Assembly: GCF_031457275.1 (NCBI RefSeq)
Contig: NZ_JAVDWH010000001.1
Span: 2,170,001-2,234,000, forward strand
Direction of reading: 5' to 3'
Origin: Aeromicrobium panaciterrae
Lineage (GTDB): Bacteria > Actinomycetota > Actinomycetes > Propionibacteriales > Nocardioidaceae
Length of the DNA stretch: 64,000 nt
Shown piece by piece: positions 34,221-43,801 of the stretch; position 1 is the stretch's first letter; each line of letters starts with the position of its first letter. The notes under the pieces were generated by a model. That model had not been told where the DNA came from. It did no database searches and saw only the letters and a program-made list of their open reading frames with translations. A program made the translations under genes and the position numbers.

Positions 34221-35624
34221 GTGGTGAAGGCCCTGCCCCTGTCGCGCCTGTCGGTGAGGCAGAGGCTCACCACGACCGTCGCCCTCGCGACCACACTCGG
34301 GCTCGTGGTCGTCGGCGTCACGATGTACGTCGTTGAGTCGCGCCGCATCGACCGCTCAGTTTCCGTAGCGCTGACCTCAGAACTCGGTGAGATGCGCGCG
34401 TTCCAGAAGTCTGGCCGTGACCCTGACACGCTCAAGCCGTTCGCCTCGCCGGATCTTCTCGTCACATCGTTCCTTGAGCGCAACCTCCCAGACCAGAACG
34501 AGATCCTGTTCGGCTTTCCCAGCACGGGCAAGCCACAGTTCGTCGGTGACGCCCCATCCTCGCTGCAGACGTCCGATGCTTTCCGCACGACGGTCGGCCG
34601 CGACCGGGTAGCCGGTGGCACCTCGACCGTGATTGTTGCCGGTAACGAGTACCGCGTGGCCGTGCTTCCCATCACGGACGGCAAGGTCACGGCGGCGTTC
34701 GTCGTCGTGCATGACGTGACATTGACGCTCGCACCTCTGCGCGACCTGATGGTTACCTACGCCGTGCTGGCAGCTCTCGCCGTACTCATCATTGCGGCTC
34801 TCGCCTCGTGGCTCGCAGGACGCCTACTCAGCCCCGTCCGACGCCTACGGGACACAGCCCAGGGCATCACCGACGGCGACCTCAGTCGACGAATAGAGGT
34901 GACCGGGCAGGACGACCTCGCCGACCTTCAGCGAACGTTCAACGACATGCTCGATCGCCTCGAGTCGGCGTTCACGGCGCAACGCCAGATGCTCGATGAC
35001 GCCGGCCACGAGCTGCGCACCCCATTGACGGTTCTACGTGGCCAACTCGAAGTGCTGGATCCCGACGATCCCGATGACGTCATCGCCACCCGCAACCTTC
35101 TGCTCGACGAGGTCGATCGCATGACCCGACTCGTCGGAGACCTTCTGATGCTTGCGAAGGCACGCCGGCCCGACTTCGTGTCGCCCAAACCGACAGACAT
35201 CGAGACCCTGACCCACGGGATCCTTAACCGCGCCAAATCGCTGGGACATCGCACCTGGCTCCTCGACGGGGTAGCCCGAGGGCATCACGACCTGGACGAG
35301 CAGCGCATCACTCAGGCGATGCTCCAGCTCGCCGAGAATGCTGCACGCCACACCGAGCAGGGCATCGAGATCGGCATCGGGTCCAGAATCGCGGATGGAC
35401 AGCTCGAGCTATGGGTTCGCGACACCGGTCCCGGTGTGGATCCACAGTTGCGGCATGAGGTATTCGAGCGGTTCGCACGCGGGCAGCGCAGTGACGAGGG
35501 GTTCGGTCTGGGGCTTTCAATCGTTCGCGCGATCGTCGAGGCCCATGGAGGTGCGATCCTGCTTGACGACACGTCCACCGGAGCGACGTTTCGCATGCGC
35601 ATCCCGACGGGAGTTACCTGGTGA
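34221..35624 (+). CDS. Sensor histidine kinase with HAMP domain
   Basis: A 467-residue membrane sensor kinase. Order: membrane helix (about 16-36), extracytoplasmic domain of about 130 residues, second helix (about 172-195), HAMP (RLLSPVRRLRDTAQGI), HisKA with the phosphorylated histidine in DDAGHELRTPLTVLRG, and HATPase (N box LAENAARH, G1 DTGPGVD, G2 GFGLGLSIV). GTG at 34221 starts right after the stop of the Asp-rich gene. It overlaps the response-regulator gene by four bases, so the pair is made together. Ligand unknown; the Asp-rich partners suggest a cation or surface-charge signal (inference). Confidence 0.9.
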   Translation: MVKALPLSRLSVRQRLTTTVALATTLGLVVVGVTMYVVESRRIDRSVSVALTSELGEMRAFQKSGRDPDTLKPFASPDLLVTSFLERNLPDQNEILFGFPSTGKPQFVGDAPSSLQTSDAFRTTVGRDRVAGGTSTVIVAGNEYRVAVLPITDGKVTAAFVVVHDVTLTLAPLRDLMVTYAVLAALAVLIIAALASWLAGRLLSPVRRLRDTAQGITDGDLSRRIEVTGQDDLADLQRTFNDMLDRLESAFTAQRQMLDDAGHELRTPLTVLRGQLEVLDPDDPDDVIATRNLLLDEVDRMTRLVGDLLMLAKARRPDFVSPKPTDIETLTHGILNRAKSLGHRTWLLDGVARGHHDLDEQRITQAMLQLAENAARHTEQGIEIGIGSRIADGQLELWVRDTGPGVDPQLRHEVFERFARGQRSDEGFGLGLSIVRAIVEAHGGAILLDDTSTGATFRMRIPTGVTW

Positions 35625-36332: not shown

Positions 36333-36824
<492 letters not shown>

Positions 36825-39541: not shown

Positions 39542-42304
39542 TTACGCGCGAACCTTTTCTCGCATTTCGTACGTTTCGATGATGTCGCCGACCTTGATGT
39601 CGTTGTAGCCCTTGAGCACGATGCCGCACTCAAAGCCCTCGCGGACCTCGGACGCGTCATCCTTCTCACGACGCAGGCTGCCGAGATCGAGGTTCTCGGC
39701 GACGACAGCGCTGTCGCGAAGCAGACGTGCCTTGGCATTGCGCTTGATGACGCCACCCGTGACCATGCAACCGGCGATGTTGCCGATCTTGCTGGAGCGG
39801 AAGATGTCGCGGATCTCGGCGGTACCGAGCTGCGCCTCTTCGAACTCCGGCTTGAGCAGGCCCTTGAGCGATGCCTCAATCTCCTCGATCGCGTTGTAGA
39901 TGATCGAGTAGTAGCGGATCTCGACGCCTTCGCGGTCAGCCAGCTCCGTCGCCTTGCCCTGCGGGCGGACGTTGAAGCCGATGATCACGGCGTTGGACGC
40001 GGCGGCCAGCATGACGTTGGTCTCCGTGATCGCACCGACACCGCGGTCGATGACGCGCAGTGCGACACCTTCGCCGACGTCGATCTGTGCGAGCGCATCC
40101 TCGAGAGCCTCGACCGAACCTGAACCATCACCCTTGAGGATGAGGAGCAGCTCGTCGGTCTCGCCCTTCTCGAGCGAGGACATGAAGTCCTCGAGCGTAC
40201 GGCGACCACTGCGCTGCGCCAGGAGAGCGTTGCGCTCACGCGCTTCGCGCTTCTCAGCGATCTGGCGAGCCAGGCGGTCATCAGCGACAACCATGAAGTT
40301 GTCACCTGCGCCGGGTACTGCCGTCAGACCGAGCACCAGCGCAGGACGCGACGGTGTGGCTTCTTCGATGTTCTCGCCGTGCTCGTCGAGCAGGGCGCGA
40401 ACGCGACCGAACGCCGGGCCGGCGACGATCGAGTCGCCCACCTTGAGCGTTCCACGGTGCACGAGGATCGTTGCGACAGGACCGCGACCACGGTCGAGGT
40501 GCGCCTCGATGACGAGGCCCTCGGCGTTCTGGTCGGGGTTGGCGCGCAGATCGAGCGATGCGTCAGCCGTGAGGACAACCGCTTCAAGAAGCTCATTGAG
40601 ACCCGTACCGGCCTTGGCCGAGACGTCGACGAACATCGTGTCTCCGCCGTACTCCTCGGGCTGGAGCCCGTACTCGGTGAGCTGACCGCGTGCCTTGATC
40701 GGATCTGCACCGGGCTTGTCGACCTTGTTTACCGCGACCACGATCGGAACGCCGGCGGCCTTGGCGTGGTTGAGCGCCTCGATCGTCTGCGGCATGACAC
40801 CGTCATCGGCTGCGACCACGAGGATCACGATGTCGGTTGCCTGCGCACCACGGGCACGCATGGCGGTGAACGCCTCGTGGCCCGGTGTATCGATCAGCGT
40901 GATGCGACGCTCGGTGCCGTCAACTTCGGTCGCGACCTGGTAGGCGCCGATGGACTGCGTGATGCCACCGGCTTCCTTGTCGACAACGTTGGCGTTGCGG
41001 AGTGCGTCGAGCAGCTTGGTCTTACCGTGATCGACGTGACCCATGACGGTCACGACCGGCGGACGCGGAGCGAGGTCCTTGTCGTCGCCCTCGTGCTCAC
41101 CGAACTCGAGGTCGAACGACTCGAGCAGCTCGCGGTCCTCGTCTTCGGGCGAGATGATCTCAACGTTGTAGTTGAGCTCTTCGCCGAGCAGCAGCAGCGT
41201 CTCGTCATTGGCCGACTGAGTGGCCGTGACGATCTCACCGAGGTGGAACAGCACCTCGACGAGCGACGCGGAGTCTGCGCCAATCTTCTCGGCGAAGTCG
41301 CTCAGCGACGAGCCGCGAGTCAGGCGTACGTTCTCGCCGTCGCCCTTGCGTACGCGGACTCCGCCGATGGCAGGAGCCTGCATCTGGTCGTATTCCTGGC
41401 GCTTGGCGCGCTTGCTCTTGCGTCCACGACGTACGGGACCGCCGGCGCGACCGAACGCGCCCTGGGTGCCACCACGCGTGTTGCGACCAGCAGGACCGCC
41501 ACCGCTGCGCGGAGGACCGAATCCTCCACCGCCACCGGGTGCTCCGCCGGGTCCACCGCGACCGGGTGCGCCTCCGCCACCGGGTGCTCCGCCTGGACGG
41601 CCTTGGTAACCACCGGGTGCACCGCGACCGGGTGCGCCACCGGGTCCACCGCGACCGGCGCCGGGTCCGCCACGAGCCTGGTCACGGCTCGTCGGAGGAC
41701 CGCCGAGGCCGGACTGACGCGGCATCATCGCGGGGTTGGGGCGAGGCATACCGGGAACTGCCGGTGCTGCCGCTGCGCCACCTTCGCGTGCTGCAGGGGG
41801 ACGCGGGGCGCGCTGCATGCCCTGCGTCGATGAGAACGGGTTGTTGCCGGGGCGTGCGCCACCTGCACCAGGCGCGCGGGGGCCGGGGCTGGGAGCGCCA
41901 CCGGGGCGCGGGGCCGCGGGGGCTTCAGTTGCGGCAGCGGGAGCCTCGACGGGCGCTTCAGCGACCGGCTCAGGCTCGGGCTCCGCGACAACGCGCGGGC
42001 CGGGCGTAGGACCGGTGGGCTTCTCGGCGACCGGCTCGGGCGCTTCGACAACCTCGGCCGGAGCCTCAGCAGGCGCTGCAGCCTTGGCGGGGGCAGCCTT
42101 CTTGGCGGCGGGCTTGCCGCCGGACTTCTTGGCACCTTGGGCGCGCAGCGCTTCACCGTGTTCTTCGGTGAGGCGGCGTACGACGGGCGCTTCGACGGTC
42201 GAGGAAGCCGACTTTACGTACTCACCCATGTCTTTCAGGGTGGACAGGACGACTTTGCTCTCGACACCGAACTCGCGGGCGAGCTCGTGGACTCTTACAG
42301 CCAC
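39542..42304 (-). CDS. infB: Translation initiation factor IF-2
   Basis: A 920-residue GTPase that brings initiator tRNA to the ribosome. After the N-terminal IF2_N motif ([15 protein letters not shown]) comes a long Ala/Pro/Glu region and a Gly/Pro/Arg-rich low-complexity stretch (about residues 130-300) typical of actinobacteria. The G domain has [16 protein letters not shown] and NKVDKPGA; the C-terminal tRNA-binding domain is complete. It starts with GTG at 42304; AAGGAG lies four bases upstream but inside a hairpin, with a chain of minigenes above it (separate entries). Confidence 0.97.
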
Positions 42305-42308
42305 TTTT

Positions 42309-42336
42309 CTCCTTCAGGGGGTCCGACCCAAAGGAG
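42309..42336 (-). promoter_or_regulatory. Hairpin hiding the infB ribosome binding site
   Basis: On the minus strand CTCCTT (42336-42331) is complementary to the infB Shine-Dalgarno AAGGAG (42314-42309). Between them GGGT and ACCC form an inner stem around a three-base loop. As RNA this folds into a hairpin whose outer stem occupies the ribosome site. The last minigene stop (42345) is eight bases upstream, close enough for a terminating ribosome to open it. Confidence 0.6.
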
Positions 42337-42344
42337 GATCAGAC

Positions 42345-42404
42345 CTAGTTGACGTGCAGGCTCATCGGTCAGTACTCATCGGTGAGTACTCATCGGTTCG
42401 TCAT
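42345..42404 (-). promoter_or_regulatory. Chain of four ATGA-linked minigenes in infB leader
   Basis: Read on minus: ATG at 42404 (MTNR, stop 42390), ATG at 42393 (MSTHR, stop 42376), ATG at 42379 (MSTDR, stop 42362) and ATG at 42365 (MSLHVN, stop TAG 42345). Each TGA overlaps the next ATG as ATGA. The DNA is a tandem repeat of period 14, with ctcatcggt at 42361, 42375 and 42389 on plus. GGAG lies ten bases before the first ATG. Sequence facts are certain; translation is untested. Confidence 0.6.
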
Positions 42405-42456
42405 GAGCGGGGTGCTCCGATTCGTGGTCTGGGAACGCTGTGTGCGTTCCTCGTGG

Positions 42457-42762
42457 TCATTCAGCAGGTGGTGATTCGCTGATCATGGCACTCAGCGCAT
42501 TCAGGTCAAGCGACCCTTCGACTCGAAGGGCCCGACCAAACGCTTTGCGTCGTGTCGCGAGCTCCAGGCACCGTGCCGTTGGGTGCAGATGCGCCCCGCG
42601 GCCCGGCAACGATCGGCTCAGATCGGGTGTCACGACCGTGGTCGTGGACTCCTTAGCTGCGACGACTCGCACCAGAGTGGTCTTGTCCGCACGCTCTCGG
42701 CAGCCGATGCACGTACGAAGGACCTCGGTCAGTCTACCCGTTTCGCGAGGCGGCTGCGCCAT
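42457..42762 (-). CDS. ylxR: YlxR family (DUF448) RNA-binding protein
   Basis: A 101-residue small basic protein encoded between nusA and infB, the standard YlxR position. The family signature [19 protein letters not shown] is present, with [17 protein letters not shown] and the RKAFGRALR segment. YlxR is thought to bind RNA and has been linked to RNase P or transcription in some bacteria. The ATG at 42762 overlaps nusA by 29 bases; a CTG or other start after the nusA stop is possible. 152 bases separate it from infB. Confidence 0.9.
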
Positions 42763-43801
42763 CGGTTCCCGTGCCGTCTCCCGTGGCGGGGACTTCGGTG
42801 TCGGAGCGGATGTCGATGCGCCATCCGGTCAGCTTGGCGGCGAGCCGCGCATTCTGACCTTCCTTGCCGATCGCGAGCGACAGCTGAAAATCGGGTACGA
42901 CAACCCGCGCCGAGCGCGTCGTCGGGTCGACCAGCGTGACGCCCTTGACCTGCGAGGGCGACAGTGCGTGCGCGATGAATTCCGCGGGATCGTCGCTGTA
43001 ATCGACGATGTCGATCTTTTCGCCGTGCAGCTCGTGCATGACGTTGCGTACGCGTGACCCCATGGGACCGATGCAGGAACCCTTGGCGTTGATGCCCGGC
43101 ACATTGGCGCGTACGGCGATCTTGGTGCGGTGACCTGCTTCGCGGGCAATCGCGACGATTTCGACCGATCCGTCAGCGATTTCGGGCGCTTCAAGCGCGA
43201 AAAGAAGCTTCACGAGGTTGGGGTGGGTGCGCGAAACCTTGACGCGCGGTCCCCGCAATCCCTTTTCGACCTCGTACACGTACGCCTTGAGGCGCTCGCC
43301 GTGGGCGTACTTCTCCTCGGGCACCCGCTCGGACGCCACGAGAATTGCCTCAATACGACCGAGATCGAGGGCAACATCACCCGGACGGCTCTGCTGGATG
43401 ACACCGGAGACGATGTCGCCGACGCGGCCAGAGAACTCGCCGTACTTCGCCTCGTCCTCGGCGTCGCGGATGCGCTGCATGATCAGCTGGCGCGCGATCG
43501 TCGCGGCAAAGCGGCCGAAGTCGTCAGGAGTGTGCTCGAACTCCTCAGTGAAGTTGGGTTCGGGCCGTTCAACGGGCCCATCGCCCTCCGCCTCGACGGG
43601 CTCGTCGTCGGCGAGGCGCTCCTTGGCCCACACGATGACGTGGCCGGTCTTGCGGTTGAGCTCAACGCGCGCATTCGGGAACGATCCCGGCGACTTGTGA
43701 TAGGCCGAGAGGAGCGCGGTCTCGATGGCCTCGACGACCACCTCGAACGAGATGTCCTTCTCGTGCTCGAGAGCTCTCAGGGCTGCCATGTCGATGTCCA
43801 T
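42734..43801 (-). CDS. nusA: Transcription termination/antitermination factor NusA
   Basis: A 355-residue RNA-polymerase-associated factor. Order: N-terminal domain ([20 protein letters not shown]), S1 domain ([20 protein letters not shown]), KH1 ([20 protein letters not shown]) and KH2 ([20 protein letters not shown]). There is no C-terminal acidic repeat, as is normal in actinobacteria. Its ATG shares one base with the rimP stop (TGATG), giving tight coupling in the rimP-nusA unit. Confidence 0.97.

Follow-up and report, generated by a model that had tools for sequence, protein, structure and literature searches.

The upstream region of infB, the gene of initiation factor IF-2 (IF2), in Aeromicrobium panaciterrae was found to contain four minigenes linked by ATGA overlaps, followed by a leader that is predicted to fold into either of two structures, one next to the last minigene stop and the other with the infB start region. 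We hold, with slightly better than even confidence, that this arrangement is a ribosome-controlled translational switch in which a ladder of termination and re-initiation serves as the sensor and exerts negative feedback on IF2. The analysis covered a 64,000-nucleotide stretch of the genome (referred to as the window, to which all the coordinates belong) and the infB upstream regions read in its genus, family, order, class and phylum, the sample being the loci returned and the regions picked among the listed matches.

Organization of the minigene chain in the window

All the features of the chain lie on the minus strand. The ylxR gene (101 aa, 42457..42762) ends at an ATGA, which opens a 19-codon ORF (42401..42460) that is closed in turn at the ATGA of the first minigene. 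This link from ylxR to the minigenes was present in the window and not general among the genus relatives, as judged by reading. The first minigene (MTNR*, 42390..42404) is preceded by a Shine-Dalgarno-like GGAG (CGGAGCACCCCGCTC, 42405..42419), which by reading recurs in the genus, and is followed by minigene 2 (MSTHR*, 42376..42393), minigene 3 (MSTDR*, 42362..42379), which is a 14-nt repeat of minigene 2, and the last minigene (MSLHVN*, 42345..42365), which ends with TAG. Direct reading of the sequence between 42404 and 42345 thus returned the same four ATGA-linked minigenes before infB that the first-pass annotation had described. The infB gene (920 aa, 39542..42304) starts with GTG at 42304-42302, 40 nt after the last minigene stop. 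The 14-base tandem repeat, also claimed earlier, was recovered by TRF at 42361-42397 as 2.6 copies with 95% matches, and it looks like a duplication of the middle minigene. Relatives within the genus contain 3, 4 or 5 linked minigenes, and a number that varies from 3 to 5, in the window by duplication of a unit, fits with rungs that are interchangeable.

A second chain of at least three ATGA- or GTGA-linked ORFs of up to 9 codons was not found on either strand of the 64-kb window. The pattern ATGA-N7to13-ATGA-N7to13-ATGA, which covers minigenes of 4-6 codons only, gave 15 matches in the 2.8 Mb genome and both gaps were in frame in only two of them, both at infB. Known types of control were also searched for. 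There were 0 terminator-like sites (hairpin and U tract) in 42200-42900 of the window, and a transcription attenuator or terminator reading was ruled out on this basis. Similarly, a known riboswitch or Rfam cis-element was ruled out by Rfam scans, which gave no match up to E=1 in 42000-42900 of the window and, among 20 relatives, only a microRNA match in one locus (L120) with 34 bits against a gathering score of 79. A sigma-70-like promoter match (TTGACC-16 nt-CATGAT, with TG before CATGAT) was noticed at 42509-42482 on the minus strand, inside the end of ylxR and upstream of the chain; if this promoter is real, the transcription of the ladder and infB could be separate from that of ylxR.

Conservation of the chain in Actinomycetes

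The ylxR query matched 45 of the 49 genomes of the window's genus. When loci identical around infB were merged into one, at least three linked minigenes were found before infB in 126 of the 126 distinct same-class loci first examined, 37 of which come from the window's genus; 124 were recognized by script and two (L044 and L046, both with MSTR, MNTSK and MSLHINL) by reading. The comparison with relatives that had been proposed as a check of the ATGA chain supported a conserved minigene element before infB. One more locus, which has no InfB match and whose contig ends early (L021), was left out of this count and its chain is nonetheless visible. Among 20 further regions, 19 belong to infB, and 18 of these 19 contain at least three minigenes (17 recognized by script, L347 by reading); in L350, two linked minigenes are accompanied by a third ORF that is longer. 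The remaining region belongs to an infB-like paralogue (L352, genome G338, family f7), which by reading has no visible minigene chain and makes a natural control; some of the f7 genomes carry extra genes with an InfB-like N-terminus. In the phylum comparison, at least three linked minigenes were present in 12 of 12 same-class loci, which include the window itself and some genomes already read, whereas none of the 18 loci that belong to other classes had so many; in one of these, two ORFs are linked.

The named genomes were searched with a pattern that spans the first minigene and extends into the second, and at least 118 loci were obtained. All the 118 that were listed precede infB (117 assigned by regex and L236, with an ATG start, by reading) and 117 of them have at least three minigenes, the exception being L292 with two, the number that is built into the search pattern. 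Among the matches listed were Streptomyces, Actinomadura, Kitasatospora, Nocardiopsis, Microtetraspora, Nocardioides, Tessaracoccus, Microlunatus and Propionibacteriaceae, and the element was sampled across 38 GTDB families.

The dimensions of the chain were found to be nearly constant. Of 106 loci from the class but not from the genus, 86 have a third-last minigene of 4 codons, 93 a second-last one of 5 and 96 a last one of 5 or 6, and 198 of the 212 junctions are ATGA, 4 are GTGA and 10 are TGATG or TAATG. Minigene starts thus follow one another at typical distances of 11 and 14 bases, and one ribosome would therefore span more than one rung. The peptides differ among families (MSTR, MSAR, MTTR, MTAQ and MKLK are examples of the third-last one) with length and junctions constant, and functional peptides were ruled out. 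Similarly, no conserved stalling codons or arrest peptide emerged, the peptides and codons varying between families. As the codons vary across the class, the earlier suggestion that the chain senses the supply of specific tRNAs (Thr, Asp/His, CGA-Arg) was not supported. The conserved part is the layout, namely the spacing and the ATGA junctions, and not the peptide. The chain in the window is partly a tandem repeat, and this would be the argument for taking it as chance or as a by-product of the 14-base repeat; the chain is kept class-wide, mostly without such a repeat, and this explanation, refuted by the conservation, retains practically no probability. The presence of the minigene chain throughout the class with its spacing kept is thus well supported by the sequence comparison.

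The infB gene neither overlaps nor adjoins the stop of the last minigene, the gap being 40 nt in the window and mostly 35-65 nt elsewhere in the class. In one locus (L340), the chain is present, but the gap is 20 nt and there is no clear hairpin.

Predicted alternative structures of the infB leader

The leader between the last minigene and infB is predicted to form hairpin A, which directly follows the last stop codon. The 5' arm (GGTCTGATCC, 42336..42345, minus strand) starts in the final base of this codon, where a terminating ribosome would sit, and pairs with the 3' arm (GGGTCGGACC, 42320..42329, minus strand). When 165 distinct segments were folded with the infB codons left off, all the 165 paired one or more bases of the stop codon or the next 10 nt with a position farther downstream. 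Pairing between this stretch (the stop and 10 nt) and the remaining leader was better than in shuffled sequences (p<=0.05) in 17 of 22 genus loci and in 54 of 150 loci outside the genus, so there hairpin A is less secure than the second structure, helix B. On these folding results, hairpin A appears less well supported than the chain and helix B. A long fold of the window also paired CAGACC (42431-42426, within the 19-codon ORF) with GGTCTG (42345-42340) of the hairpin A 5' arm, and such a pairing upstream of the minigenes is a possible third state.

Helix B is the pairing of the leader with the infB start region. In the window, its 5' side, the sequestor (CTCCTTTGGG, 42327..42336, minus strand), shares bases with both the arms of hairpin A, and thus the two structures are mutually exclusive; its 3' side (CCTGAAGGAG, 42309..42318, minus strand) contains the infB Shine-Dalgarno sequence (SD) AAGGAG (42314-42309). 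The first-pass annotation had noted that CTCCTT (42336-42331), located 8 bases after the last stop, can pair with this AAGGAG, and reading of the sequence agreed with it. As a general rule this kind of helix held only within the genus, most of which is without the codon motif described below and has helix B as a CTCCTT-like loop pairing with the SD: the mean was 7.7 continuous pairs (9 in the window), and 20 of 25 distinct loci surpassed shuffled sequences at p<=0.1. Elsewhere in the class, SD pairing was mostly at chance (p<=0.1 in 6 of 150 loci) and infB codons are used instead. There, in most cases, the 3' arm of hairpin A, typically CGGACC, is complementary to infB codons 3-7 (AAG GTC CGN GTN), and both the SD and the start codon are enclosed by the resulting helix, which in L089 and L155 attains 11 continuous pairs. 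The SD-type helix in the genus and the codon-type elsewhere indicate that the sequestering strand seems to have been exchanged and the logic retained. Both types were found in a locus of the window's genus (L020), where 11 pairs involve the codons and 7 the SD, and long SD-type complementarity was read in L164 and in the Nocardioides locus L289. In two other Nocardioides loci (L237 and L238), the sequestering strand by reading seems to pair from the infB GUG onward (GGCCA:UGGCC, then AAGACC), which would put the start codon itself within the helix.

The specificity of helix B was assessed by several comparisons. With one locus taken from each of 38 families, the duplex of the leader with its own infB had -21.4 kcal/mol against -18.7 kcal/mol with foreign ones, and 0 of 10,000 permutations was as stable. 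Measured by duplex energies with the leader taken up to -9, the pairing with infB was better than that of shuffled leaders at p<=0.05 in 115 and at p<=0.1 in 128 of the 150 loci outside the genus. In a variant based on the longest helix with the leader cut at -16, codon pairing had p<=0.1 in 47 of these 150 loci, and with mononucleotide shuffles and the genus included, z<-2 was obtained in 72 of 124 loci; for 49 of the 124, the own infB start ranked in the top 10% relative to foreign ones. Furthermore, the Arg codon of infB has a synonymous third position, and in 91% of 116 distinct triplets this base was found to pair with the arm (68 G-C, 15 A-U and 14 C-G pairs, plus G-U types). Since the 6-nt core pairs by construction, only the positions beyond it inform this count, which was made after exclusion of 19 among the 178 loci outside the genus (16 without the GG[TC][CT]CG motif and 3 without a partner). 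With one locus per family (35 families), the third base pairs in 90%, and shuffling gave a mean of 59% and a maximum of 80% in 2000 draws. The hairpin A 5' arm pairs at the same arm base in 67% of the triplets and in 50% per family. The A-U type at the Arg site occurs only in family f1, and a mismatch was seen in f13, f15 and f26. In two loci of family f1 (L165 and L170), infB reads AAG ACC CGA and the leader carries CGGGUCUU instead. Helix B was weak in L169, L171, L130 and L131, and no core arm was recognized in L130, L131 and L135. The permutation, shuffle and synonymous-site results together with the change in L165 and L170 argue for selection on helix B, which is well supported.

These results also bear on the idea that the chain merely keeps ribosomes on the ylxR-infB gap, which reaches 188 nt in the genus, and thereby shields the mRNA from Rho or RNases, the structures being incidental. 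A gap of this length would suit such a role; however, one longer ORF would serve it equally, whereas short lengths and ATGA junctions have been kept, and the leader covaries with the infB codons. We consider this explanation very improbable.

Predicted response to terminating ribosomes and a possible feedback on IF2

The effect of a terminating ribosome was modelled on equilibrium folds of short segments: a growing stretch that begins with the first base of the last stop codon was hidden, and for each length the opening cost of the infB site was calculated. In the window, opening the SD costs 3.8 kcal/mol with no base hidden and 6.6-10.1 kcal/mol with 8-13 nt hidden, the peak of about 10 kcal/mol being at 8-11 nt and the values at 12-13 nt being 7.6-6.6, and the SD is nearly open again (4.1 kcal/mol) when at least 15 nt are hidden. 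The genus median for the SD (n=32) was 3.9 kcal/mol for no base hidden, 9.9-11.6 for 8-13 nt and about 4 from 18 nt on. In the rest of the class (n=133), the cost of the whole 30S site increased from 13.4 to 16.9-18.9 kcal/mol with 10-20 nt hidden and was about 12 or less from 26 nt on; the SD alone barely shifts outside the genus (3.6 to 4.7 kcal/mol), and the increase falls in the start codon and the first codons. With 13 nt hidden, 156 of 165 loci had a cost above the shuffled-leader mean (median difference +4.8 kcal/mol); z was greater than 2 in 77 of the 165, and the whole site of the window was at par with shuffled leaders (13.5 vs 13.2). When the stop codon is in the A site, the ribosome covers about 12-13 bases from the first base of the stop on, and thus a terminating ribosome would remove hairpin A and hinder infB. 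The higher cost with about 10-14 nt hidden suggests that translation of the minigenes probably represses infB, which is the reverse of the polarity given in the first-pass annotation. That proposal, in which a ribosome at the last minigene frees infB, had missed hairpin A, and hiding 8-13 nt raises the SD cost; it would hold for the window if at least 15 nt are hidden. As the SD of the window is closed at 8-13 nt and nearly open at 15 nt or more, its polarity hangs on the footprint.

The opposite, positive coupling would mean that ribosomes at the last minigene open infB, either by covering the strand that pairs with the SD or by moving on to infB. The near freeing of the window SD beyond 15 nt speaks for it, and in a study on an archaeon and E. 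coli, coupling at ATGA/TGATG was strict in 13 of 14 gene pairs (PMC6728339). However, the rest of the class shows a higher opening cost for 10-20 hidden nt, because the 5' arm adjoins the stop and the closing strand lies farther on, the gap to infB is long for direct coupling and infB carries its own SD. Positive coupling is therefore unlikely in our view, though it keeps an appreciable chance.

We infer that the minigenes are translated, that the terminating ribosome represses infB and that IF2 is the quantity sensed. In the negative switch that we favour, a ribosome starting at minigene 1 would end and restart at each ATGA and would reach the last stop only after at least two re-initiations. 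A ribosome parked there would mask the 5' arm of hairpin A, and the freed partner strand would pair with the infB start region, through the SD-type helix in the genus and codons 3-7 in most of the class, hindering initiation. When few ribosomes finish the ladder, hairpin A would form and infB would remain open. The co-transcriptional order would favour hairpin A first, helix B forming only with a ribosome that arrives in time. Plentiful IF2 would let ribosomes climb the ladder and shut infB.

The sensed quantity is suggested by work in E. coli, where overexpressed IF2 led to an increase of about 2.5-fold in re-initiation when one mutant initiator tRNA was used and overexpressed IF3 led to a decrease; in the view of its authors, the requirement for IF2 may be greater in re-initiation than in de novo initiation (PMC2268962). 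With IF2 and initiator tRNA needed for restarting and IF3 acting against it, the ladder would report initiation capacity, and since it precedes infB, its completion would shut infB and re-initiation needs IF2 in E. coli, the outcome would be negative feedback on IF2. This E. coli result may fail to carry over to the present element. The same switch could respond to another signal such as termination and recycling (RF2 at the UGA stops, RRF), initiator tRNA or the general ribosome supply. The stops joined by ATGA are necessarily UGA, and in a coat-lacZ system RRF sets ribosomes free at junctions of the UAAUG and AUGA type (PMC9955659). The gene under control is, however, that of IF2 itself, a factor of importance for E. 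coli re-initiation (PMC2268962), and we regard the other signals as improbable. The broader proposal that Actinomycetes control IF-2 by a re-initiation ladder, in which the probability of restart is raised to the power of the rung number and yields negative feedback through a ribosome-gated RNA switch, is a tentative one that falls a little short of even confidence.

The element shares with translational attenuation the short leader ORFs before the gene and a leader helix with the gene start region. In attenuation of the ermC type, a ribosome stalls with the drug on the leader peptide and thereby opens the gene. Two mutually exclusive structures, one of which closes the start region, and selection between them by ribosome position would also be common to both, but stalling opens ermC, whereas here a minigene chain of varying peptides would, on completion, most likely close the gene. 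Feedback loops are also known for other translation factors, namely the prfB frameshift for RF2 and the AUU start of infC for IF3; in these, as here, the activity of the factor would set its own synthesis, but the sensor differs from a minigene ladder. A paper of 1985 is reportedly, by its title, on autoregulation of the E. coli nusA-infB operon. A translational loop of the prfB/infC kind for IF2 was not found in open-licence PMC literature, and neither this literature, searched by title and the start of the abstract, nor Rfam returned a description of a minigene ladder before infB.

Coupling by termination and re-initiation (PMC6728339) has the same ATGA/TGATG junctions; however, protein genes are coupled there, and here minigenes of 4-6 codons stand in series with infB outside the chain. 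The rimP-leader, described in PMC2965389 as a terminator motif before the first gene of rimP-nusA-infB operons in many bacteria, is a regulatory element of the same operon but lies before the first gene and not before infB. The E. coli infB gene is cold-induced by transcriptional and post-transcriptional events (PMC6511841). If the present reading is true, the leader would represent a novel type of sensor, one that responds to the activity of an initiation factor and that an entire bacterial class has kept, and in it ATGA overlaps are used, it seems, as a measuring device and not to couple proteins. It would also be a natural in vivo read-out of re-initiation efficiency that is short and easily cloned. 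As infB is essential and the element is common to Streptomyces, Actinomadura, Kitasatospora, Nocardioides and Propionibacteriaceae and to the 38 families sampled, one short leader may explain the level of IF-2 class-wide.

Elsewhere in the window, dense short tandem repeats with periods of 6, 12, 24, 36 and 63 bases were seen at 36347-36679, downstream of 34221-35624, which looks like a sensor histidine kinase gene.
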